Shown here piece by piece: positions 8,859-27,172 of a stretch of DNA of 64,000 nt (positions are counted from its first letter, which is position 1; each line of letters opens with the position of its first letter). The notes beneath the pieces were generated by a model. The model worked only from the letters and a program-made list of their open reading frames with translations. It was not told the origin of the DNA and ran no database searches. Origin of the DNA: Xanthobacteraceae bacterium (GTDB lineage Bacteria > Pseudomonadota > Alphaproteobacteria > Rhizobiales > Xanthobacteraceae); contig JAMLIK010000001.1 in the NCBI GenBank assembly GCA_023954195.1, forward strand, positions 434,001 to 498,000. The letters run 5' to 3'. A program made the position numbers and the translations under genes.

Positions 8859-8876
8859 GTGGCGATCCCGGCAGGA
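8859..8876. repeat. attL of the tRNA-Arg element
   Basis: The sequence GTGGCGATCCCGGCAGGA is identical to 11715-11732, which covers the CCA end, acceptor stem and start of the T-stem of tRNA-Arg read on the minus strand. The identity stops sharply on both sides, as expected for a recombination core left at the distal junction. Confidence 0.85.
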
Positions 8877-8990
8877 CTGGCCATCCAGCGCAAATCAATA
8901 GCTTGGACTGGCAACCCCGTAAAAGGGGCGATATTGGCGCAAAAGGGCTTTCTGCGCCGTTGGCAAACCGGGATAGACCGCCCGACAAGC

Positions 8991-9026
8991 CCAAAAGACG
9001 AAACCCCACCTTGGGCAAAGGCGGGG
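8991..9026 (-). terminator. Probable intrinsic terminator, leftward
   Basis: Read on the minus strand, CCCCGCCTT and AAGGTGGGG pair, with one G-U pair, around a 5-nt loop. The stem is followed by TTTCGTCTTTT. It would end leftward transcripts coming from the Arc-like/YodC-like genes; the IS remnant now lies between those genes and the terminator. Confidence 0.5.
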
Positions 9027-9136
9027 CTTCGGGAAGCAAATCGAAGGCTTGAGATAGCCGTAGGATTTCAAAGTACGCCGCCGATGATTCGGTTTCAAGA
9101 GTCTCGGTTTACATCGGGCGAATTTTTCTAGGCGAC

Positions 9137-9243
9137 GTGCTGGAGCCGAAGTCAGGCATCCACATTGCGCTCGCCGCAGACGGCACCGTTCTAGGCACCT
9201 ACGCGAAACGCGAGCAGGCAGCCCGCGCATTCACCGCAGCATA
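9137..9243 (+). CDS. Possible small protein or fragment inside the tRNA-Arg element
   Basis: A frame that can start at GTG 9137 ends at TAG 9243 and gives about 34 residues (VLEPKSGIHIALAADGTV, then a stretch ending REQAARAFTAA). The frame is open further upstream to about 9050 without an ATG. Its pattern of a beta-rich segment followed by a short amphipathic EQAARA helix resembles small hypothetical proteins of rhizobial prophages, but I cannot name a family. It may equally be the 3' remnant of a gene disrupted by the adjacent IS sequence. Confidence 0.25.
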
Positions 9244-9292
9244 GGAGCATCGCAACACCGGACACCGCGTTCGGACGGTTGCGCTCGCTCTG

Positions 9293-9739
9293 GTGAAGGT
9301 GCTCGAAGGTTCCGCCGTCATCATCGTTCGCAGCCGTCCGTCCAGCGCAATAGCGACTGGTCGAGATTCGGCCATGCCCCAGGGCCGACCGCTCGCCATC
9401 GAGATAACACCCGGACAACGCGGCGATCTTCGCGTCGTTCTGCCCCTTCTCTCCGGCTTGCCAGCGGCACGCTTATGCGCCGCCGATACCGCCTATGACA
9501 GCGACGGCTTTCGGCTCTTTCTGCTCGGCCGCGGGACAATCCCGGTCATCCCGAACAACCCCACGCGAAAGCGAACACATCCCTTCGACACCGAAGCCTA
9601 TAAGCTGCGCAACCGCATCGAGCGCATGTTTTGCAGGCTCAAGGATTGGCGCCGCATCGCAACCCGCTACGACAAGCTGGCGCGCAACTTCGAAGCGGCC
9701 ATCAATATCGCCGCCATCATAACTTGGTGGACCGATTGA
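9293..9739 (+). pseudogene. 5'-truncated IS5-family (IS427-like) transposase
   Basis: The frame ends in a clear IS5-family DDE transposase C-terminus: RPLAIEITPGQRGD, AADTAYDSDGF (second catalytic Asp region), VIPNNPTRKR, then IERMFCRLKDWRRIATRYDK (the DDE glutamate region) and a WW near the end. The N-terminal half, including the first catalytic Asp, is missing. The sequence before about 9370 does not read like the family's usual SRGGxTTKIH segment. I see no clear terminal inverted repeats. It is an inactive IS remnant lying opposite to the leftward genes of the element. Confidence 0.8.
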
Positions 9740-9748
9740 GTCTGGAGC

Positions 9749-9949
9749 CTAGACCACGACAGGTCCTCTTGATTGATACTTCTTGAGCAACACCAGCGGG
9801 AAAGACTCCTCCTGCAGGTTATTGTTGTCGTCAGTCCAAACGCAGATTCCATAGTCTGGATTCTCGTCATCAACGCGCATGAAAATCATCTTTTGTGTAC
9901 CGGTCTTGGATTGGACTTCTTCGCCCGGCTTAAACTGACATTCTGTCAT
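9749..9949 (-). CDS. YodC/DUF2158-like small protein
   Basis: The protein has 66 residues. The N-terminus FKPGEEVQSKTGTQKMIF matches the YodC-like pattern (FKxGDxVxLKSGGPxM). The middle VWTDDNNNLQEESFP matches the family's later segment, in which an aromatic strand is followed by LQEE-F. Members are short beta-barrel proteins of unknown function that are common on mobile elements. The ATG at 9949 is preceded by a good AGGAGG site. Directly upstream of that lies the 46-nt element shared with the other island. The gene is probably transcribed with the Arc-like gene 75 bp upstream, and the IS remnant lies just downstream. Confidence 0.75.
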   Translation of the reverse strand: MTECQFKPGEEVQSKTGTQKMIFMRVDDENPDYGICVWTDDNNNLQEESFPLVLLKKYQSRGPVVV

Positions 9950-9962
9950 TAGTTCCTCCTAA

Positions 9963-10031
9963 GGTTCCCGCAACCCTAAGTCACGGGAACCGGCCTAAGC
10001 AACCGGAATCGACCGAAGTGGGCTTCACTTC
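9963..10031 (-). promoter_or_regulatory. Shared leader element, copy 1, with upstream hairpin
   Basis: On the minus strand the order is as follows: a hairpin GAAGTG-aagcc-CACTTC (10031-10015), 6 nt, TTCCGGTTGC, 7 nt, GGTTCCCG, 5 nt, TAGGGTTG, CGGGAACC. It ends 13 nt before the ATG of the YodC-like gene and abuts its AGGAGG site. GGTTCCCG and CGGGAACC form an 8-bp stem. The 46-nt core (9963-10008) recurs at 25024-25069 with identical spacing. The hairpin overlaps the last codons of the Arc-like gene. Confidence 0.6.
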
Positions 10032-10357
10032 AACTCTCGCCGCATCCGCTGTCCGCCGAATACCTTTTCTTGCAATTCGATTACAGCGTCCTCTAACCGG
10101 ACTCCGGCATTGAAGAGGACGTCAACGATATCAAGTAGTTGTTTGTGTTTCTCTAGCTCTTCCTCGATGGCGTCCATTCGGCTGGGCTGTTCAAGGTGCT
10201 GCTCCAAAGCTGCAACAACTTCCGCTGTCATTGACCGCCCGTTGGACTCGGCAAGGGCGGATAGTCTGTCGCGCATCCCGTCTGGCAGGCGGACAATAAT
10301 TCGGTCTCTATCGTGGATACTATCTGATTGTTTTGCCACTACTGACCCCTCGGACAT
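10025..10357 (-). CDS. Arc-like ribbon-helix-helix regulator
   Basis: The protein has 110 residues. A segment around residues 20-50 (RIIVRLPDGMRDRLSALAES then NGRSMTAEVVAALE) is a textbook Arc/MetJ-type ribbon-helix-helix fold: a short beta strand with alternating residues, then helix A, the NGRSM turn and helix B. The C-terminal 50 residues form a charged helical region that may be coiled coil. It is likely a DNA-binding repressor of the element. A perfect 13-bp palindrome lies 20 bp upstream of its start and overlaps a probable -10 box, which suggests autoregulation. The ATG at 10357 has a good AAGGAAATT site. Confidence 0.85.
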   Translation of the reverse strand: MSEGSVVAKQSDSIHDRDRIIVRLPDGMRDRLSALAESNGRSMTAEVVAALEQHLEQPSRMDAIEEELEKHKQLLDIVDVLFNAGVRLEDAVIELQEKVFGGQRMRRELK

Positions 10358-10376
10358 AATTTCCTTGACCTTTCGG

Positions 10377-10413
10377 TGCCATTATGGCATATCGACACTT
10401 AAGGAACTGTCAA
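10377..10413 (-). promoter_or_regulatory. Promoter and palindromic operator of the Arc-like gene
   Basis: On the minus strand TTGACA (10413-10408) and TATGCC (10391-10386) are 16 bp apart and form a plausible sigma-70 promoter. The perfect palindrome TGCCATTATGGCA (10377-10389) covers the -10 box, a natural site for the ribbon-helix-helix repressor. The rightward gene starts at 10426, so the same dimer could also affect divergent transcription of the integrase operon. Confidence 0.6.
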
Positions 10414-10425
10414 GAGGTGTTGTGA

Positions 10426-10617
10426 ATGCCGCGTAGGAAGTCCAACGTAAATCAAGCCGATGTCCAGCGCATCATCCGCGCTTGTCAGCGTGAACAGGTT
10501 CCTTTCCAGATTACCTTGCAGCCCAACGGTGCCGCTGTCTTTGAGCCGTCAAACGCTCGTCAAGACATGGCGGATGACGCCGCGCCCGGTGCAGGATGGG
10601 AGACCGTTCACGGATGA
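10426..10617 (+). CDS. Small protein coupled to the integrase, possible recombination directionality factor
   Basis: The protein has 63 residues. The N-terminus (PRRKSNVNQADVQRIIRAC) looks like a basic patch followed by a helix, with QADVxRxIRA as in small proteins that often precede this integrase type in rhizobial islands. A short beta-like segment (FQITLQPNGAAVFEP) and an acidic tail follow. Its stop overlaps the integrase start as ATGA, so the two are co-translated. Position and size fit an excisionase-type accessory factor, but no helix-turn-helix is obvious, so that role is inferred from context only. The site AGAGGTG precedes the ATG. Confidence 0.6.
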   Translation: MPRRKSNVNQADVQRIIRACQREQVPFQITLQPNGAAVFEPSNARQDMADDAAPGAGWETVHG

Positions 10618-11714
10618 ATCGTAAAAACCCACGATACGTTCATGGGTTTGTAGATCGGCACGGAGGTCCGCGTTACTACCTCCGTAAGCCCGGTGCGAAG
10701 CGTGTTGCGCTTCCCGGCCTGCCATGGTCGCCAGAGTTTATGGCGGCCTATCAGGCGGCCTTAGATGCCGAATGGCAGGCACCGCAGATAGGTGCCAGCA
10801 GAACTAAGCCCGGCACAGTCAACGCGGCGCTCGTCAATTATTACAACTTCAACGCCGAGTTTAAGGCGTTCCAGCCCAGCACACAGAAGATGCGCCGCGC
10901 CATCCTTGAGCGGTTCCGCAATGAACACGGTGACCGTCCAATGGCCACAATGGACGAAAAGGCGGTTCGGGCGATACTGGCAAAGCGGTCACCGCTCGCG
11001 GCGCGAAACCTGCTCAAGACGCTGCGACACCTGATCCGCCACACCATCGAAATCGAGATGCGGAAGGATGACCCGACCGCCGCAATCAAAATCAAGGCAC
11101 CAAAGAGCGACGGCCACCACTCTTGGACGGATGCAGAAATCGCCAAGTATGAAGCGCGGCATCCGATAGGGACGCGGGCACGGCTGGCGCTGGCATTGCT
11201 GCTCTACACCGGCCAGCGTCGTGGCGATGTCGTCCGCATGGGGCGGCAACATGTCGTCAACAACATCCTGAGCCTGAAGCAGGAAAAGACAGGCAACCCA
11301 ATCGACATTCCAGTGAGACAGGAGATTTGGGAGGCGGCGAACGCGATGCCGAAATCCCATCAGCTTGCTTTTCTAGTCACCGATGCAGGCAACGCCTTCA
11401 CGGCGGCAGGCTTTGGAAACTGGTTTCGCGAATGCTGCAATGAAGCCGATCTTTCGCACTGTTCGGCTCACGGCCTACGGAAAGCCGCAGCAACACGGAT
11501 GGCTGAAAACGGTGCCACGACTGAGCAATTGAAAAGCTGGTTCGGATGGACTTCGGACAGTGAACCTAGCCGATACACAAAGGCTGCGAACCGCGCCCGC
11601 ATGGCGGCTGAGATAGCGGACAAGCTCAATCCAAGAACAGAAATTGGCAAACCGGCAATCCAGTTTGCCAAAACCAAAGCTAAGGCATTGAAATCAAAGC
11701 AGGTGAAATCATGA
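10614..11714 (+). CDS. Tyrosine site-specific integrase of the tRNA-Arg element
   Basis: The protein has 366 residues. The catalytic constellation is visible: Arg in TGQRRGDVVRMG, Lys in the beta-hairpin SLKQEKTGN, HGLRK as the H-x-x-R box, Trp replacing the usual third His in SWFGWTSDS, and the nucleophile Tyr in SRYTKA. The N-terminal half carries the arm- and core-binding domains. The ATG at 10614 overlaps the preceding stop (ATGA); an alternative start 18 bp upstream has no advantage. The stop codon lies one base from the tRNA-Arg gene, so the gene reads toward its own attachment site. It is apparently intact. Confidence 0.92.
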   Translation: MNRKNPRYVHGFVDRHGGPRYYLRKPGAKRVALPGLPWSPEFMAAYQAALDAEWQAPQIGASRTKPGTVNAALVNYYNFNAEFKAFQPSTQKMRRAILERFRNEHGDRPMATMDEKAVRAILAKRSPLAARNLLKTLRHLIRHTIEIEMRKDDPTAAIKIKAPKSDGHHSWTDAEIAKYEARHPIGTRARLALALLLYTGQRRGDVVRMGRQHVVNNILSLKQEKTGNPIDIPVRQEIWEAANAMPKSHQLAFLVTDAGNAFTAAGFGNWFRECCNEADLSHCSAHGLRKAAATRMAENGATTEQLKSWFGWTSDSEPSRYTKAANRARMAAEIADKLNPRTEIGKPAIQFAKTKAKALKSKQVKS

Positions 11715-11732
11715 GTGGCGATCCCGGCAGGA
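11715..11732. repeat. attR of the tRNA-Arg element (inside the tRNA 3' end)
   Basis: This is an exact copy of 8859-8876. It corresponds to the 3' end of tRNA-Arg, so integration leaves a complete tRNA gene. Confidence 0.85.
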
Positions 11733-21326: not shown

Positions 21327-21375
21327 TGGTCGGGGCAGCTGGATTCGAACCAACGACCTGCAGTACCCAAAACTG
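21327..21375. repeat. attL of the tRNA-Pro element
   Basis: 49 bp identical to 27124-27172, starting TGGTCGGGGCAGCTGGATTC and ending CCAAAACTG. It represents the 3' half of tRNA-Pro up to the anticodon stem. Identity breaks at once to the right (AAAAAA against CCGCGC). Confidence 0.92.
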
Positions 21376-21490
21376 AAAAAAGTCACTTTCGCATGATTTC
21401 AAGATATTGCAGAAATCGCAGATACCCCTTGTTTTTAAGGTCGAAATGCCTTCTTTTGATTTCACTCGATTTCCGACCGTTGCGGCATTG

Positions 21491-21510
21491 TTGGACCCAA
21501 TTTGGACCCA
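21491..21510 (+). repeat. TTGGACCCA tandem pair, left end of island 2
   Basis: TTGGACCCA occurs at 21491-21499 and again at 21502-21510, 19 bp before the integrase start codon. A similar direct pair lies near the other end (27038-27057). These may be arm-type binding sites for the integrase or a directionality factor. Confidence 0.5.
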
Positions 21511-21528
21511 CGAATTCCGGGAGAAGCC

Positions 21529-22797
21529 ATGGCAACCGAGAAGCTATCTGCTGGACGGGTACAGAACATCAAGCCGCCTGCCAAGGGCTTTATTGAGCTT
21601 TGGGACACGGTTCGCGCCGGTCTTTGTCTCAGGGTCTTTTCTAGCGGAAAGAAGACGTGGAGCTTCCGCTATCGCCCTCAGGACGGTGGAGCGCGACGGC
21701 GGATCAATCTGGGTGAATATCCCGCCATTGGCCTTTCTGAGGCTCGCAAAAGCGCCATAGAGAAAGCGGGAGAGGTCGTCAAAGGCGCGGACCCACAAGG
21801 CGAGAAAAACGCCAAGCGGAAGGCCCCTACCCTTGGCGAAGTTATTGAACGCTACATCGCCGAATATGCCGAACCGTATAAGAAACCAAGGACGGTGGTG
21901 CTCTACAAGAATTACCTCCGCAACCTCCTAAGCGACGATATCAAGCGCAAGAAGGTCGCGGCCGTCACCCGTGCCGACGTGGCTGCGGTGCACAGGCAAA
22001 TTGGAGTCCATGCTAAAGTCGCCGCCAATCGCGCCATAGCAACGCTATCCAACGTCTACACTTTCGCCAGCAACGAAAAACTCGCTCCGGAGGGATTCAA
22101 TCCAACGCGGGGCCTCACAAAATTTCCTGAGTCGCCAAAGGAACGCTATCTGACAACCGACGAACTGACGCGGCTAGGCCACGTCATGCGCACCGCCGTA
22201 ACGGACGGACTGCCATGGCCTGAGAAAGAGGTCGCCAATCCGTCGAAGCATCGCCGCAAACAGGAGAACCAAAAGACGGTTCTGGACGTCTACGTCGCCG
22301 CTGCCGTCTACCTGCTGATTTTTACGGGCTGTCGGCTTGGTGAGATTCTGGAACTGGAATGGTCGATGGTGGATACGGAACGCGGGATGCTGTTTCTGCC
22401 CGACTCCAAGACCGGCAAGAAGACCGTAGTCCTGAATACGCCGGCGCTGGCGATTCTTCAGCGCCTTGAGCCTATCGGCAAATACGTTATTCCCGGCGAT
22501 CCGGGGCCGAATGGCGAGGATAGGCCGCGCGCCGACCTGAAGCGCCCTTGGGAGCTAATCAAGCATCATGCAGGCTTAGAAGGCGTCAGAATCCACGATC
22601 TGCGACATACCCATGCTAGCATCGGAGCCGGTGACGGACTCGGACTACCTATCATCGGAAAATTGCTGGGGCATAAGAACGTCACGACAACGGCGCGCTA
22701 TGCTCATCTAGACGTTGATCCGGTACGGCGGGCATCCAACCATATCGGCGAGCGGCTATCGACTGCGATGCAAATAGAAAAAGCCGCCCCCGATTAA
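21529..22797 (+). CDS. Tyrosine site-specific integrase of the tRNA-Pro element
   Basis: The protein has 422 residues, a P4/phage-type integrase with an N-terminal DUF4102-like arm-binding domain (SAGRVQNIKPPAKGF, LRVFSSGKKTWSFRYR, LGEYPAIGLSEAR). The catalytic residues are all present: Arg in GCRLGEILELEW, Lys in DSKTGKK, HDLRHTHAS, HKN in LLGHKN, and the nucleophile in TARYAHL. The ATG at 21529 has a GGGAGAAGCC site. An upstream in-frame ATG at 21502 would overlap the TTGGACCCA repeats and is less likely. The gene reads away from its attachment site, opposite to the arrangement in the tRNA-Arg element. Confidence 0.94.
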   Translation: MATEKLSAGRVQNIKPPAKGFIELWDTVRAGLCLRVFSSGKKTWSFRYRPQDGGARRRINLGEYPAIGLSEARKSAIEKAGEVVKGADPQGEKNAKRKAPTLGEVIERYIAEYAEPYKKPRTVVLYKNYLRNLLSDDIKRKKVAAVTRADVAAVHRQIGVHAKVAANRAIATLSNVYTFASNEKLAPEGFNPTRGLTKFPESPKERYLTTDELTRLGHVMRTAVTDGLPWPEKEVANPSKHRRKQENQKTVLDVYVAAAVYLLIFTGCRLGEILELEWSMVDTERGMLFLPDSKTGKKTVVLNTPALAILQRLEPIGKYVIPGDPGPNGEDRPRADLKRPWELIKHHAGLEGVRIHDLRHTHASIGAGDGLGLPIIGKLLGHKNVTTTARYAHLDVDPVRRASNHIGERLSTAMQIEKAAPD

Positions 22798-22808
22798 GGG
22801 AGCGGCTT
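22776..22808 (-). terminator. Intrinsic terminator for the leftward pair, overlapping the integrase 3' end
   Basis: AAGCCGC (22781-22787) pairs with GCGGCTT (22802-22808), with additional C/G pairs inside. On the minus strand the stem is followed by TTTTTC. It would stop transcripts of the two leftward genes (stop at 22833). The integrase stop codon lies in its loop. Confidence 0.75.
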
Positions 22809-22832
22809 GTCGGTGGTGGTGGTGCGGAAGGG

Positions 22833-23162
22833 TTAGGCTATCGGGAACGGAATAATCTCCGCCGAAGGAATGCCTGCGCGCTTTCGACCGTTAGTCCTAA
22901 TCAGGCGAATGGCGGCGTCTACAGCATCGTCGAGGGTTGGGCGCGGATCAGCGCGCTTGTTACTGCACCCTTTCTTCGCGGGTTCGACTTGCTCGCGTTG
23001 CGCCCGTAGTTCGGCCTTTCTGGCGCGGATGGCCTGAATCATGGAATTTATAAGTTCTACCGAGGACTGAGGTGGAGTCGCGCCGGACTCGACGTCCTTT
23101 CTCATGTCGTCAATTAAATCGATCAGCGGATTGGACGATGTGGCTTTGAGTGGTCTGCTCAT
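22833..23162 (-). CDS. Hypothetical island protein, coupled to the acidic protein upstream
   Basis: The protein has 109 residues and no family is recognised. The N-terminus SRPLKATSSNPLIDLIDDM is followed by a helical, basic centre (SMIQAIRARKAELRAQREQ) and a C-terminal helix with DDAVDAAIRLIRTNGRK. The ATG at 23162 is chosen because it overlaps the stop of the upstream gene as ATGA; a longer frame lacks that logic. It is the second gene of a two-gene leftward unit that ends at an intrinsic terminator. The partner is strongly acidic, so the two products could bind each other. Confidence 0.65.
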   Translation of the reverse strand: MSRPLKATSSNPLIDLIDDMRKDVESGATPPQSSVELINSMIQAIRARKAELRAQREQVEPAKKGCSNKRADPRPTLDDAVDAAIRLIRTNGRKRAGIPSAEIIPFPIA

Positions 23163-23677
23163 TGCGCCGACTCCCCCTCCAGATCGAAGCATCGCCCCAT
23201 GGCACCGCTATATGTTCGACCCCGCGCGGCTTCCTCTGCGGTCCAACCCAGGCTCGGCTCATCATCTTGATTGTCGTCGCCGTCCTCGTCGACTCCCTCG
23301 CCGCGAGGATCGTCGGTTTCGTCCAGTTCTCGCTCGCAGAAACCGACGCTGGGCTCGTCGTCGCAGTAGTCAGCCTCAGCATCGTCCGCGCAAGTCAAAC
23401 AATGCTCGTAGCCGGCGAGATTGGGTTTGTCGTCGTTGCCGTCTTCCAGATCTGGATCCCCGGCTTCGGCGTCCAGCGACTCAATCAGAACCTCAATCAG
23501 CGCCGCCCGGTCCTTCCGGCTCCAAGCCTTAAAGAATTCCTCGGCGGTAACGCCTATCGTCTTGTATGCCCTCCCAACGGCCTTGGGCGGCCCGCTGGTT
23601 CGTTTTATGTTCTTCCGCTGTCTGGTGGCGGATTTAGCCTTGGACGCATCACGCGCCCGCTGTGGGGATTTGGTCAT
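23159..23677 (-). CDS. Hypothetical acidic island protein with cysteine cluster
   Basis: The protein has 172 residues. The first 35 are very basic (KSPQRARDASKAKSATRQRK). A predicted helical region (TAEEFFKAWSRKDRAALIEVL) follows, and then a highly acidic half with many Asp/Glu and cysteines (HCLTCADDAEADYC, then GFCERE). The CxxC plus later cysteines could bind a metal. No family is recognised. It is coupled by ATGA to the next gene. The strongly split charge, basic head and acidic tail, is unusual and may mimic or bind nucleic-acid-binding partners. Confidence 0.6.
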   Translation of the reverse strand: MTKSPQRARDASKAKSATRQRKNIKRTSGPPKAVGRAYKTIGVTAEEFFKAWSRKDRAALIEVLIESLDAEAGDPDLEDGNDDKPNLAGYEHCLTCADDAEADYCDDEPSVGFCERELDETDDPRGEGVDEDGDDNQDDEPSLGWTAEEAARGRTYSGAMGRCFDLEGESAQ

Positions 23678-24020
23678 GGGGTAGTCTTTCGGTTTGGCTT
23701 CCTACAGCCGTCACCGGCAACAGGCCGGCAGCCGGGGGGTAGGAACCTGCCGAAAGACAGGTCGCAGCGCTTTTAAGCCTTTCGGCTCTGGACATGGCAC
23801 AGCGCCCCCGGCATAAAGCCAGAACGGCGCGCCCGCCAAGGCGCTCCAATAGCGCCTAGCGAACCCGCCAAGGCTCGCTGCGCTTTCGGCAGCAATCGAC
23901 GCCAATCGACTGCCAGCCTATTTCGGTCCGGGTTCCTACACCCACGGACACCTTACCCTGATTTGCTAAGGAAATCACCCCCTCCGGGGCGCGAAAGCGC
24001 GGCCTTGTGTCGACTATTGA
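23678..24020. other. Intergenic region of island 2, no gene supported
   Basis: There are 343 bases between the leftward pair and the HigBA promoter. Short frames exist on both strands but none has a start with a ribosome site plus a recognisable protein. It presumably contains the promoter of the leftward pair. I see no repeats of note. Confidence 0.4.
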
Positions 24021-24059
24021 TTGACACTCGGGCATGTGTCGCCTATAACACGACACATG
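24021..24059 (+). promoter_or_regulatory. HigBA promoter with palindromic operator
   Basis: TTGACA (24021-24026), a 17-bp spacer and TATAAC (24044-24049) form a near-ideal sigma-70 promoter. CATGTGTCG (24033-24041) and CGACACATG (24051-24059) are perfect inverted arms 9 bp apart. The palindrome covers the -10 box and its last three bases are the higB start codon. The predicted transcription start falls at about 24056-24057, so the mRNA would be leaderless or nearly so. Binding of HigA here would block the promoter. Confidence 0.8.
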
Positions 24060-24344
24060 GAAATCGAGAGCATCAGGCACAAGGCGCTGCGCCGGTTCGT
24101 CGAAACCGGAAAAGCAAAGGGGCTGCCGGGCGATCTGGTCCCGCGGCTGCTCAAGATGGTCAGTTTCATCATCGACGCCGGAAGCCTGGATGAACTGGCG
24201 ACGCCGCCAAATTATGGCCTTCACTCCATGACGGGGGATCGGCTTGGAACGTGGTCGATGACCGTGACGAAGAATTGGCGGATGACATTCACCCTTACCG
24301 AAACCGGCGCGGTGGCCGATCTCGATCTGGAGGATTATCACTGA
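24057..24344 (+). CDS. higB: HigB-type toxin (RelE/ParE superfamily, plasmid maintenance killer)
   Basis: The protein has 95 residues. The sequence begins MEIESIRHKALRRFVETGK and continues with a helical LPGDLVPRLLKMVSFI, then YGLHSMTGDRLGTWSMTVT-KNWRMTF and a C-terminal LDLEDYH. This is the pattern of HigB ribosome-dependent mRNA interferases: RHKALRRF, the L-G-WS-V-N-R strand and the D-LEDYH end. It overlaps higA by one base (TGATG), and the toxin gene comes first, as usual for hig modules. It stabilises the island by killing or arresting cells that lose it. Confidence 0.92.
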   Translation: MEIESIRHKALRRFVETGKAKGLPGDLVPRLLKMVSFIIDAGSLDELATPPNYGLHSMTGDRLGTWSMTVTKNWRMTFTLTETGAVADLDLEDYH

Positions 24345-24646
24345 TGGCTATCAAGGTTCACCCGACTTTCGCCGTTCACGCCGGGGAATGGCTCAAGACC
24401 GAGATCGTGGAGCCGCACGGCGTCAATGTGAAGGCGCTGGCCGAGCATCTCGGCGTCTCCCGCCAGAACCTGAGCAATGTCCTGCACGGTCACACCGCCC
24501 TGTCGGCCGACATGGCGATCCGCTTCGAGAAGGCTTTTGGCCTCAAGGCTGAAACCCTTCTGCGGATGCAGGCCCGATACGATCTCGCCCAAGCGCGGAC
24601 CCATGAACGCGACATCAAGGTCAAACCGCTGACGGCAGCGGCTTGA
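24344..24646 (+). CDS. higA: HigA-type antitoxin (helix-turn-helix)
   Basis: The protein has 100 residues, an XRE-type helix-turn-helix in which NVKALAEHLGVSRQNLSNVLHG spans the two DNA-reading helices. It is followed by the antitoxin-typical ALSADMAIRFEKAFGLKAETLLRMQ. It should neutralise HigB and repress the promoter through the palindrome at 24033-24059. The start ATG shares its A with the higB stop (TGATG), so translation is coupled. Confidence 0.93.
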   Translation: MAIKVHPTFAVHAGEWLKTEIVEPHGVNVKALAEHLGVSRQNLSNVLHGHTALSADMAIRFEKAFGLKAETLLRMQARYDLAQARTHERDIKVKPLTAAA

Positions 24647-25023
24647 ACATCGGTCATAAGCACCACCATCGTGCGGAATGACCGGTCCAAATACGGGATT
24701 TTCCCGTATTTCGGCACCGCCTGAAAAGCCCGTCGTTGTTGGGTTTCTTGGTGATTTTCTCGGGTTTCGGCACCACATCTCGAATTGCTCAAGCGGGACG
24801 GCGGCTATCTTTTCGCAGCGATTGGCTACTGATGTGGAAATGCCAGCCGTCGCGAGCGCTTCTCTTTTTGACTTCCTCCCACCACTGGGAAGAAGTTTAT
24901 CAGTGCGCTCTCCCTGGCCTGTTTCAAGTAGTGCGCTCAACTCCCCGATGCGAACCGCAGCTCGCAGGCGGATTTCGGCTATCCAGATAGGACGGCTCAA
25001 TTTTGCGCCGTCCTAGCGAACGT
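24647..25023. other. Region between HigBA and the small rightward genes
   Basis: It carries the leftward phage-gene remnant described separately, and a perfect 8-bp inverted repeat with a 10-nt loop (24989-25014) just before the shared leader element. A sequence TTTCCCGTATTTCGGCACC near 24705 is loosely repeated near 24755. Confidence 0.4.
24779..25000 (-). pseudogene. Remnant of a phage protein of the ERRAGELL/GISxxQSSR type
   Basis: On the minus strand from TTG 25000 the sequence reads IAEIRLRAAVRIGELSALLE, then GERTDKLLPSGGRK and AGISTSVANRCEKIAAVP-LEQFE. This is the recognisable middle of a common prophage protein family (AEIRLRAERRAGELL...GISKxQSSRWQKLAxxPxxxFE). A stop codon precedes the conserved part, and the normal C-terminal part is absent. 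The frame continues only as sequence antisense to higA. It is therefore probably a truncated gene, perhaps cut when the HigBA module was acquired. Confidence 0.5.
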
Positions 25024-25069
25024 TTCCGGTTGCCATCCCTGGTTCCCGCGCCGTAGGGTTGTGGGAACA
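24989..25069 (+). promoter_or_regulatory. Shared leader element, copy 2, with upstream hairpin
   Basis: The order is: hairpin AGGACGGC-(10 nt)-GCCGTCCT (24989-25014), 9 nt, TTCCGGTTGC (25024-25033), 7 nt, GGTTCCCG, 5 nt, TAGGGTTG, TGGGAACA (end 25069). AGGAGCGGAGC and then the ATG of the 69-residue protein at 25081 follow. The core is 46 nt long, as in copy 1 (9963-10008, minus strand). The closing C-G pair of the stem there becomes a U-G pair here, which keeps the stem. Confidence 0.6.
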
Positions 25070-25080
25070 AGGAGCGGAGC

Positions 25081-25290
25081 ATGGCGGACTTCACTATCAA
25101 CATTGAATACAATGTGGACGGACAGACAAAATATCTACGCGAGAGTTTTGGCCTTGCAGAGTTCGGGGGCGCCGTTCCGGTTGCGGGTGACATCTTCGCC
25201 CACGGCAGCGACCTATTTCGGGTCATTCACCGCAGATTCAACCCGGCGCAGCACTCTTGCATTCTCGCCTGCGAGCCACTCACTGACTAG
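25081..25290 (+). CDS. Hypothetical 69-residue island protein under the shared leader
   Basis: The protein has 69 residues with no recognised family. It is beta-rich: DFTINIEYNVDG, then VPVAGDIFAHGSDLFRVIHR and ACEPLTD. The GDIF...GSDLFRV pattern recalls small SH3-like barrels, loosely as in the YodC-like protein that follows copy 1 of the leader, but I would not claim homology. AAGGAGCGGAGC gives a strong ribosome site. Confidence 0.65.
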   Translation: MADFTINIEYNVDGQTKYLRESFGLAEFGGAVPVAGDIFAHGSDLFRVIHRRFNPAQHSCILACEPLTD

Positions 25291-25313
25291 GCGAGTCGAG
25301 GGCGTGTAGAAAG

Positions 25314-25613
25314 ATGACGGCTCCAAACATACCAACAGCGCGTGAACGTCGCGCATTGGAGAATGCCGAAGGCGGTGGGGCGGGCGGCGAAAGCGAAGCG
25401 AAACTCTATGTCGGTCAAAAGACAATTGAACAATGTATCGCGAAGGGTTGGCTGGAACGTCTGCCGGACAGCCTTATCGGGTTAAAAATGCACCGAGTCA
25501 CTGACAAAGGGCGGGCGGCCTTGGCTCGAAAATTGCCACCCAAAAAGAAGCGACCAACTATTTCCATGCTCGGACCGCGAGTAACGCCACTCGAAAAACT
25601 TAAACGGCGCTGA
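25314..25613 (+). CDS. Hypothetical island protein with winged-helix-like C-terminal half
   Basis: The protein has 99 residues. The segment TIEQCIAKGWLERLPD and then HRVTDKGRAALARKLPP resembles the recognition helix plus wing of small winged-helix proteins (xxLxxKGLIER...YxLTxKGRAAL). The N-terminus (ARERRALENAEGGGAGGESE) is flexible and the tail basic. It is probably DNA-binding, by pattern only. It lies 23 bp after the 69-residue gene, with which it is likely co-transcribed. Confidence 0.6.
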   Translation: MTAPNIPTARERRALENAEGGGAGGESEAKLYVGQKTIEQCIAKGWLERLPDSLIGLKMHRVTDKGRAALARKLPPKKKRPTISMLGPRVTPLEKLKRR

Positions 25614-25633
25614 GTTCACTGTCCCAGCGCCGT
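25604..25633 (+). terminator. Inverted repeat at the end of the small rightward genes
   Basis: ACGGCGCTG (25604-25612) and CAGCGCCGT (25625-25633) with a 12-nt loop overlap the stop codon of the preceding gene. There is no T-run. It separates the convergent units. Confidence 0.45.
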
Positions 25634-25675
25634 AATGTCCAAACACCCCTGATATCGCGGGATGCTGCTGCCGGC

Positions 25676-26092
25676 TCAGGCACTGACCGGGTCCGGGACA
25701 ACGCTCAGAATCGGCCGATTCTCATAGATTGACGCCTTCGGCTTTTCGGGGGCCGATGCTGCTTCCGATGCAATACGGCTGGCGCGAGCCTTTTCAAGCG
25801 TAGCGCGGATTTCATCGGCATCTGCATCCAGCGTACCGGATGCGATATCTTCCAGCGCGATTTCCAAAAGCGTTTCGTTGGCTTTCATGAGAAGTCTGGC
25901 ACCGACGCGGCCGGCGGTTAAAATATCAATCTTGTGCAGATCACAAACCGGACGCGCCATCATGGCGACGGCGATTGAGATTTCATCGCCCCCATCGGCA
26001 AGGTGCTGGTGCCAGCATTTCTTTGCCGTCTGCATGGCGAGACGCTGCTCGCCGCTGAGGAAACTCTCGGGATCAATCATGGTATCGGTCAT
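25676..26092 (-). CDS. Hypothetical island protein, last gene of the AlpA operon
   Basis: The protein has 138 residues with no recognised family. It is mostly helical: LSGEQRLAMQTAKKCWHQHL, then MARPVCDLHKIDILTAGRVG and an acidic DADADEIRATLEKARA, with a Pro-rich end. The ATG at 26092 overlaps the preceding stop (ATGA), so it is coupled to the 64-residue gene. It is convergent with the small rightward genes. Confidence 0.6.
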   Translation of the reverse strand: MTDTMIDPESFLSGEQRLAMQTAKKCWHQHLADGGDEISIAVAMMARPVCDLHKIDILTAGRVGARLLMKANETLLEIALEDIASGTLDADADEIRATLEKARASRIASEAASAPEKPKASIYENRPILSVVPDPVSA

Positions 26093-26283
26093 CGGGTTGC
26101 CTTTCTGGCCTTACGTTCCGCTATCTCGCGCTTGAGACGGGACATATTGCTAAAATCGACGGTGTTGGCGGTGCGGGCAGCGCGCCATGCTTGCCAGTCA
26201 ATCGGTTGGGGCGTCACGAGTTCGCCGACTTTATCCTCGCCCCAACGATGCAGCACCTTTTGGGTGATGCCGTCTCTCGTCAC
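26089..26283 (-). CDS. Hypothetical 64-residue island protein
   Basis: The frame starts at GTG 26283 and ends with an ATGA overlap into the next gene. The sequence (TRDGITQKVLHRWGEDKVGEL, IDWQAWRAARTANTVDF, a basic end) is not recognised. The GTG has no strong ribosome site, so the true start is uncertain. A strong terminator lies about 50 bp upstream of it, between this gene and the 37-residue gene, so these two downstream genes may need their own promoter or read-through. Confidence 0.45.
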   Translation of the reverse strand: MTRDGITQKVLHRWGEDKVGELVTPQPIDWQAWRAARTANTVDFSNMSRLKREIAERKARKATR

Positions 26284-26330
26284 CGATGTAAGAAGCGCGA
26301 ACCCCAGAAAAACGTGGGCGCGGGAATAAG

Positions 26331-26360
26331 AGCGAAAAAGATTTCGCCGCGAAATCTTTT
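26331..26360 (-). terminator. Strong bidirectional terminator-like hairpin
   Basis: AAAAGATTTCGC (26336-26347) and GCGAAATCTTTT (26349-26360) form a perfect 12-bp stem around one base. On the minus strand it is followed by T and CGC after five T in a row. It overlaps the stop codon of the 37-residue gene. Confidence 0.75.
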
Positions 26361-26472
26361 AGTGCTTCGATGCTATCGCGAGCGCGAACTGTTCTTGGGC
26401 ATCATCGGGAATCCGCGCGACCTTAGAGGCCCCGCCGACAACGCCGGCGGGCGATTTGATTTTGTGCTGCAT
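26359..26472 (-). CDS. Overlooked 37-residue gene of the AlpA operon
   Basis: The ATG at 26472 is preceded by GAGGTGACACC, a good ribosome site. The frame encodes MQHKIKSPAGVVGGASKVAR followed by IPDDAQEQFALAIASKH and ends at TAA 26359, inside the arm of a strong terminator. It begins 9 bp after the AlpA-type gene. Start signal, spacing and terminator together argue for a real small protein. No family is recognised. Confidence 0.55.
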   Translation of the reverse strand: MQHKIKSPAGVVGGASKVARIPDDAQEQFALAIASKH

Positions 26473-26481
26473 GGTGTCACC

Positions 26482-26712
26482 TCAGGCGTGATTCTGAGGT
26501 GCGGACTTCGCTTGATGGCGCTTGATCCAGCCCTGTGGATCAGCGCGCCACTCCTCCAACTCGTCACGTCGCCATGCGACGCGGCGCGGCGATAGTTTGA
26601 CGCGGCGAGGAAACAAGCCGTCACGCTCGTGCCGCCACAAGGTAACTTTTTTCACTTCAGGATTGTATGATGCCGCGAGTTCGCGGAAGGTCACGAGAGG
26701 GGATTCAGACAT
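26482..26712 (-). CDS. AlpA-type phage transcriptional regulator
   Basis: The protein has 76 residues. The motif VTFRELAASYNPEVKKVTLW followed by RHERDGLFPRRVKLSPRRVAW and RRDELEEW is the classical AlpA/excisionase-type winged helix-turn-helix (VSxxTLWRxxxxGxFPxxxxLxxRxxxWxxxEVxxW). I choose the ATG at 26712; a longer frame adds eight residues that lack similarity. AlpA proteins activate integrase or excision functions on cryptic prophages. Upstream lies a palindrome overlapping a likely promoter. Confidence 0.85.
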   Translation of the reverse strand: MSESPLVTFRELAASYNPEVKKVTLWRHERDGLFPRRVKLSPRRVAWRRDELEEWRADPQGWIKRHQAKSAPQNHA

Positions 26713-26911
26713 GTATTCTCCATGGCGCGCAGCCACGAAGGGCCGCCGCCTAAACGGTGGTCGTCCTCATTGATGGTTCTCCGTTGGCTCCCGCTACGGA
26801 CTGGCGTCCGCCCGTTCCCCGAGCCGTAGGCCCCACTGAAGGGGCAGCTTGCATCGGCATCCGTCGTTAAACATCTGCCGTTAGCGCCGAAGCGCTCGCG
26901 CTGCACGAGCG
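26713..26911. other. Leader region of the AlpA operon
   Basis: About 200 bases lie between the probable promoter and the AlpA start. On the minus strand a six-codon frame (MRTTTV) has a GGAGAACCATCA site, and CCCC-TTCAGT-GGGG forms a small hairpin. These could be a leader peptide and structure, but the support is weak. Confidence 0.3.
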
Positions 26912-26947
26912 ATGCTTAACGTAAGCATAAGATGTTCCAAATGTCAA
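26912..26947 (-). promoter_or_regulatory. Probable AlpA-operon promoter with palindrome
   Basis: On the minus strand TTGACA (26947-26942) is followed after 18 bp by TACGTT. The palindrome ATGCTTA-ACG-TAAGCAT (26912-26928) overlaps this -10 region and is a likely operator. The stretch is AT-rich compared with its surroundings. Confidence 0.5.
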
Positions 26948-27037
26948 TATGTAGCAAGCGAATCGGTTACCGAGCTAGATCTAGTGCAGCGGAACAGAAC
27001 TCTACAGGTGGACCGGCCTGACCCACCAAACCGGGTT

Positions 27038-27057
27038 TTGGACCCATAGTGGACCCA
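27038..27057 (+). repeat. TTGGACCCA-type pair, right end of island 2
   Basis: TTGGACCCA at 27038-27046 and TGGACCCA at 27050-27057 in the same orientation, 67 bp inside attR. They match the pair near the integrase at 21491-21510. Confidence 0.5.
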
Positions 27058-27123
27058 ACGCACAAACGAGAACCACCCACCGATTTGGCAGGCTGTTCAA
27101 TCTATTGATTTTTATGGTGATTT

Positions 27124-27172
27124 TGGTCGGGGCAGCTGGATTCGAACCAACGACCTGCAGTACCCAAAACTG
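27124..27172. repeat. attR of the tRNA-Pro element (inside the tRNA)
   Basis: 49 bp identical to 21327-21375, covering the tRNA from the CCA end through the T-arm, variable region and anticodon loop. The intact tRNA continues to the right. Confidence 0.92.

Follow-up and report, generated by a model that had tools for sequence, protein, structure and literature searches.

Why should two unrelated tRNA-associated islands of one bacterium carry the same short string next to small genes? The first-pass annotation of the 64,000-nt stretch of Xanthobacteraceae DNA analysed here (the window) had marked such a string, 46 nt long, on the minus strand of a tRNA-Arg island and again in a tRNA-Pro island. 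It was read as an undescribed cis-regulatory RNA or, less likely, as a DNA operator or promoter. Our analysis shows a real, start-linked 49-bp element, apparently under selection, in four phage-satellite-like islands of one genome. The unusual aspect is that the element is common to otherwise different islands in one cell; satellites are usually described singly, each with its own helper.

Four copies of a 49-bp element in tRNA-bounded islands

The string was found at 10008-9963 of the minus strand, followed by AGGAGG and by an ATG at 9949-9947. The second copy announced for the tRNA-Pro island is present as well (25024-25069, plus strand), and the lengths 10-7-8-5-8-8 hold in both, but its last block differs, reading TGGGAACA instead of CGGGAACC. 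Conservation starts three bases earlier (CGW) than had been marked, which extends the tRNA-Arg copy to 10011-9963. A window search with the pattern TTCCGGTTGC-N7-GGTTCCCG, allowing up to three mismatches, gave two matches, both exact (9984-10008 minus, 25024-25048 plus); shuffled controls gave a mean of 0.12 matches, and two matches in 2 of 100 shuffles. The repeat is thus real, but two copies were too few. Across the 4.18 Mb of the genome (7 contigs), the first two blocks with the spacer between them have exactly four occurrences, each of them on contig C1, at 341817 (+), 444008 (−, window 10008), 459024 (+, window 25024) and 512741 (+). Seven more genome matches, with two or three mismatches, appeared unrelated by eye.

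All four copies are inside islands whose ends are marked by a repeated tRNA gene 3' end, one copy per island. The islands are called A (tRNA-Ser; att repeat 17 bp, island 15.9 kb), B (tRNA-Arg; 18 bp, 2.9 kb), C (tRNA-Pro; 49 bp, 5.8 kb) and D (tRNA-Lys; 45 bp, 10.6 kb); A and D are outside the window. Window positions are:

8859..11732: tRNA-Arg island (B), with an 18-bp att repeat at 8859-8876 and an integrase at 10596-11714
21327..27172: tRNA-Pro island (C), with a 49-bp att repeat at 21327-21375, an integrase at 21502-22797, AlpA at 26482-26736, and a HigB-like gene with an HTH gene at 24021-24646
9963..10011, minus strand: shared 49-nt element, tRNA-Arg copy, CGATTCCGGTTGC-N7-GGTTCCCG-N5-TAGGGTTG-CGGGAACC; 84.3 bits
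25021..25069, plus strand: shared 49-nt element, tRNA-Pro copy; 75.2 bits
9984..9991, minus strand: left arm GGTTCCCG, invariant in all four copies
9963..9970, minus strand: right arm CGGGAACC, differing among copies, 21 bp from the left arm, centre to centre
10015..10031, minus strand: upstream hairpin GAAGTGAAGCCCACTTC, including the stop codon of an Arc-like gene; otherwise only in the tRNA-Lys copy

A gapless alignment of the four copies has 31 invariant columns out of 49, and pairwise identity ranges from 34/49 (A-B) to 46/49 (B-D). The conserved positions form the blocks CGWTTCCGGTTGC, C[CT]GGTTCCCG, TARGGTTG and YGGG, and the remaining N7 and N5 positions vary at constant length. Across copies the left arm is invariant, whereas the right arm drifts. 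The small hairpin that had been noted upstream does exist (10031-10015), but the Arc-like gene's stop codon falls within it, and of the other copies only the tRNA-Lys one has it.

Could these copies be leftovers of common ancestry, or of recombination between mosaic islands, preserved by chance and functionless now? The islands do share other short blocks, namely 68 bp at 79% between A and C and, with a further island E, 35 bp at 97% (D-E) and 295 bp at 98% (A-E). However, invariant blocks alternate with spacers that have changed in sequence but not in length, and all four copies are linked to a start codon; both are signs of selection. Here A and C align over the element alone (45 nt). We regard a leftover as improbable.

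Island E lies in C1:388001-408000, is bounded by a 45-bp tRNA-Asn repeat and has a portal match and an integrase; the element is absent from it. Its block shared with A is 97.6% identical over 295 bp, and the 35-bp block (97%) common to E and D lies just downstream of D's element. The 68-bp block of A and C is non-coding (window 24709-24776 and C1:340176-340243) and contains two TTTCGGCACC repeats, spaced 56 bp in both islands; a GACGG/CCGTC hairpin is found near it, possibly an origin or another control region.

Island anatomy and the genes beside the element

Island A encodes an integrase, portal, capsid, TerS, TerL, head protease, HNH endonuclease, head-tail adaptor and head closure protein. 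Island D has portal, S78 protease, capsid and TerL genes together with a terminase-small-subunit-like gene; its match to the integrase family PF00589 is weak, 17.2 bits where 27.1 is the cut-off. The terminase-small-subunit-like protein (377-384 aa) is common to A (C1:349918-351072) and D (C1:519336-520469), with 77% identity, and gave no match at E≤1e-20 in 390 other genomes of the family. The TerL proteins of A and D, compared directly, are distant homologues (23% identity, E 9e-19). No tail genes were recognised in A or D among the scanned proteins, which represent part of the ORFs. By anatomy A and D resemble capsid-forming, PICI-like satellites, satellite behaviour being a prediction, and C, with its integrase, AlpA and HigB-like toxin with an HTH partner (window 24021-24646), resembles a small AlpA-bearing satellite. 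Island B has 587 bp at 86% and 391 bp at 78% in common with D, carries a transposase fragment as well, and looks like a remnant of a D-like island.

The distance from the element's 3' end to an ATG is 13 bases in A and B, 11 in C and 12 in D, with a Shine-Dalgarno-like stretch matching at least five of the six bases of AGGAGG before the ATG in all four copies. When the same kind of test was applied to every position of the four islands, on both strands, 385 of 70,688 points passed (0.54%). The proposed location before start codons of small mobile-element genes is therefore borne out by four copies out of four, none being unlinked to a start. The neighbouring features in the window are:

9955..9960, minus strand: Shine-Dalgarno AGGAGG of the YodC-like gene
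9749..9949, minus strand: gene downstream of the tRNA-Arg copy, 66 aa, DUF2158/YodC-like below threshold (13 against 22.3 bits), matching phrog_3261
25081..25290, plus strand: gene downstream of the tRNA-Pro copy, 69 aa, no recognised family, the best Pfam and PHROGs matches being weak
10025..10357, minus strand: Arc-family ribbon-helix-helix gene, ending 13 nt before the element; its paralogue in the tRNA-Lys island is 88% identical

The downstream genes differ, encoding 137 aa in A, 66 aa in B and 69 aa in C. In D, the ORF behind the ATG is antisense to a ParB_N-domain gene whose stop codon lies within the element, and phage relatives of the ParB protein align at most to residue 143 of 175; this ORF may not be a real gene, or may be a relic. 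A second exact TTCCGGTTGC, followed by GGG, occurs at window 25175-25184 inside the gene downstream of the tRNA-Pro copy, possibly by chance. On the other side of the element, a same-strand ORF stops 13 nt upstream in B and D (the Arc-like gene) and 3 nt upstream in A. The B/D homology (86% over 587 bp) ends at the element's last GGGAAC, beyond which the two islands are unlike. Because it stops at the 3' end of the element, different genes were joined to one upstream piece, and in B and D the element marks the joint between this shared piece and exchangeable genes.

A homology break at the element, and one full copy in each of four islands, could also be expected of a cos-like packaging site, or of some other signal by which a common helper phage replicates or packages DNA, present once in each satellite. 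Passages of PMC6092414 describe satellites that carry their helper's cos (SaPIs, and EcCICFT073, where cosN is identical to that of the helper and present in two copies), and such a cos is likewise a short DNA block common to otherwise different mobile elements. A start-codon link is not expected for cos, which needs no place 11-13 nt before an ATG, yet all four copies are found there, adjoining a Shine-Dalgarno stretch and an ATG. Moreover, the tRNA-Asn island E, which is related and has a portal gene, lacks the element, and the TerL proteins of A and D, at only 23% identity, give no ground for expecting a common recognition site. Cos sites as a rule adjoin the terminase small-subunit gene, whereas the element is kilobases away, about 3 kb from the TerS gene in A and about 6.6 kb from the terminase-small-subunit-like gene in D. 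A packaging signal is in our judgement a poor prospect.

Proposed promoter with operator, or structured RNA

The reading that we prefer, and to which we give even credence, is that of a compact DNA promoter with an overlapping operator, driving a small accessory gene, a different one from island to island, in several phage-satellite-like islands that share the cell. Two hexamers would belong to it:

9997..10002, minus strand: −35-like hexamer TTGCTT, TTG invariant in all four copies; no call in the consensus scan
9973..9978, minus strand: −10-like hexamer TAGGGT, 18 nt from the −35-like hexamer, TA...T invariant in all four copies; no call in the consensus scan

The invariant TTG (columns 7-9) and TA...T (columns 31, 32 and 36) are 18 bases apart. 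Read by eye, they would belong to a −35 hexamer TTGCNN, an 18-nt spacer and a −10 hexamer TARGGT, with CGWTTCCGG directly upstream of the −35-like site. Transcription would start near the conserved GGGAAC, giving a short leader with the Shine-Dalgarno. One arm, GGTTCCCG, falls in the spacer and the other, CGGGAAC, at the expected start site; they are separated by 21 bp, two helical turns, and could be recognised by a dimeric repressor or activator. N7 and N5 vary in sequence and never in length, which fits promoter geometry, and the fixed spacers together with the drifting right arm fit an operator. None of the four copies was called as a promoter in a scan with the standard sigma-70 consensus; as the hexamers are weak, an activator may be needed. 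All four genes would respond jointly to a common trans factor, whether the host's own or that of a shared helper phage. We infer promoter activity, start site, bound protein and common control from this layout.

No candidate for a binding protein common to all four islands was identified. The Arc-like protein was set aside as binder, since a genome search found two copies, in B and D, and none in A or C; in A, another small ORF matches the phage repressor family phrog_4738. Alphaproteobacterial LexA boxes, EcfG and sigma-54 promoters, MerR-type operators and integron attC sites were set aside on comparison by eye with their known motifs. So was a conserved leader peptide: fourfold-degenerate positions are invariant, so that the constraint is not on a protein.

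The element might instead act as a structured RNA, placed in an mRNA leader or between cistrons and made of two hairpins ending just before the Shine-Dalgarno. The first would be CCGG/CYGG with a 9-nt loop, followed by one unpaired U, and the second UCCCG(Y)/(G)YGGGR with the conserved loop UARGGUU. Its role could be protein-bound control of translation, a processing site, or an action on RNA polymerase like that of HK022 put. Such a role is possible because the upstream ORFs (two Arc-like, one other), which stop 3-13 nt before the element on the same strand in A, B and D, could give a read-through mRNA over it. The RNAalifold consensus has −13.2 kcal/mol, with z of −2.2 to −3.0 relative to column shuffles, and its energy is better than that of 996 full column shuffles and 973 class-preserving ones, out of 1000 each. 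The two hairpins fit the four copies save for one cell, so that 10 of 11 pairs are kept in all four; the four variable pairs among these change only in G-U-compatible ways, which argues against the promoter, as RNA explains this and a DNA palindrome does not. The predicted anatomy also recalls the put antiterminator RNA of HK022, a phage transcript that likewise has two adjacent stem-loops in the passages of PMC9378689 on it; put is about 70 nt, with longer stems than those of the element, and the comparison is of anatomy, not of sequence.

Against the RNA, all changes are one-sided: no pair is changed on both sides, in an alignment of only four sequences, and this lack of covariation had been named beforehand as a sign against a structured leader. 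A kept 8-bp stem had been described along with conserved blocks and variable spacers, but only the tRNA-Arg copy has all of its pairs. Each of the other three copies lacks one or two outer pairs; 28 of 32 cells pair, and the failures fall on the outer three pairs, in A or in C and D. Stem arms are at most 8 nt, and five contiguous pairs are common to all four copies. Folded singly, only the tRNA-Arg copy stands out, with z for 63-65 nt of −2.8 in B, −0.6 in D, +0.8 in A and −1.6 in C; for the 46-nt core the values are −3.4, −2.1, −0.2 and −1.1, respectively. Folding energy is, furthermore, lowered by any DNA inverted repeat, and the two-hairpin structure was selected from the same four sequences that were used to score it. 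An RNA therefore seems to us rather unlikely. Both options of the earlier annotation are retained, but their order is reversed: the DNA reading fits better, by its fixed spacings, its invariant left arm and its published analogue, the ESAS of mycobacteriophages.

Published analogues and range of the element

The ESAS of cluster K mycobacteriophages appear to be the closest published thing. According to passages of PMC11373665, they are 46-47-bp intergenic sequences that contain an imperfect inverted repeat and, 17-18 bp apart, putative SigA-like hexamers, and repression by a bound regulator is proposed there as plausible; a passage of PMC3203893 has the left repeats nearer to the consensus than the right ones, and PMC12699233, in the part concerned, calls the promoters putative and the function a matter awaiting experiment. 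The likeness to these descriptions lies in a conserved block of about 46 bp just upstream of gene starts (here 49 columns, 31 of them invariant, before a Shine-Dalgarno and ATG in four copies of four) and in an imperfect inverted repeat with the left arm better kept. The differences, measured against the same passages, are several. The ESAS inverted repeat is 15-17 bp, whereas the arms here are at most 8 nt; ESAS usually come with a 13-bp SAS, GGGATAGGAGCCC, whereas here, by eye, no start resembles the SAS beyond the Shine-Dalgarno and the Shine-Dalgarno regions are unlike each other. ESAS occur in several copies per phage, and the present element once per island, in four different islands, with a different sequence and in an alphaproteobacterial host. 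For the putative SigA-like hexamers of ESAS, the candidate counterpart is TTGCNN-N18-TARGGT, read by eye, which the consensus scan called in none of the four copies. In our reading the element would work like an ESAS, yet it is not a member of that family.

Late promoters of P2 and P4 are activated by Ogr/delta, so that helper and satellite share a short, activator-dependent promoter site. The promoter proposed here may be a site of a similar kind; the P2/P4 site sequence is not known to be related to it.

The element was not found beyond its source genome in the collections searched. The 26-base pattern, allowing up to three mismatches, matched none of 390 other genomes of the family (1 of 391, the source genome) and none of 346 others in an order-level draw (1 of 347, again the source genome); the two draws overlap. 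Exact patterns gave no copy in viral contigs, and no plasmid or phage matched a 541-bp query taken around the tRNA-Arg copy. An exact 18-base scan of genome contigs returned 20 stretches, about 7 being expected by chance according to our own estimate. All 20 have at least four of eight mismatches to the next block, TARGGTTG, and several come from Lentzea/Amycolatopsis, in one coding-like context; they were rejected as chance-like. With covariance model R1, run under stricter filters with at most 86 candidates scored per genome, the four copies scored 75-84 bits and the best of 60 other genomes 24.8 bits. Some match at E≤0.5 was obtained in 23 of 61 genomes, source genome included, and six inspected alignments from outside it (20.1-24.8 bits) match mainly the 5' block. 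The concern that only two copies might exist is thus answered in part, with four copies, yet all in one genome.

Within the source genome, with 15 integrase and 8 portal matches, some such islands lack the element, and 11 other integrase or portal regions (220 kb), a part of these matches and among them the region of island E, contained no copy. For the genes downstream of the element in A, B and C, viral contigs yielded no relatives, and at 25 viral loci with relatives of the Arc-like gene the element is absent. It was not found in open-licence literature, which was searched by topic and not by sequence. As had been supposed, it lies outside the Rfam families: at gathering score the window gives only three tRNAs, and the loose matches (one in 751 bases around the tRNA-Arg copy, five in three 3-kb loci) are below gathering score, none on the element. 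The true range may be wider, near relatives of the strain possibly being missing from the collections.

Restricted to four islands of one genome in these collections, the element offers a short DNA handle on satellite co-regulation. A broader proposal, which we advance tentatively and judge more doubtful than the promoter itself, is that one trans factor, from the host or a helper phage, switches cargo genes of several satellites, a cross-satellite regulon built on a module that the islands converged on or exchanged. In a stronger variant the module would act as RNA on the transcription or translation machinery, as a put-like element of satellites. The element could also help to ask which of the small cargo genes are expressed and what signal they respond to; a single 49-bp fragment is enough for a test.

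Two minor observations concern the window. A weak match to the Rfam family sRNA-Xcc1 was found at 23722-23813 of the minus strand (27.8 bits against a gathering score of 53). The divergent promoter region of the Arc-like gene (10358-10425) contains by eye the palindrome TGCCATAATGGCA, a possible autoregulatory operator.
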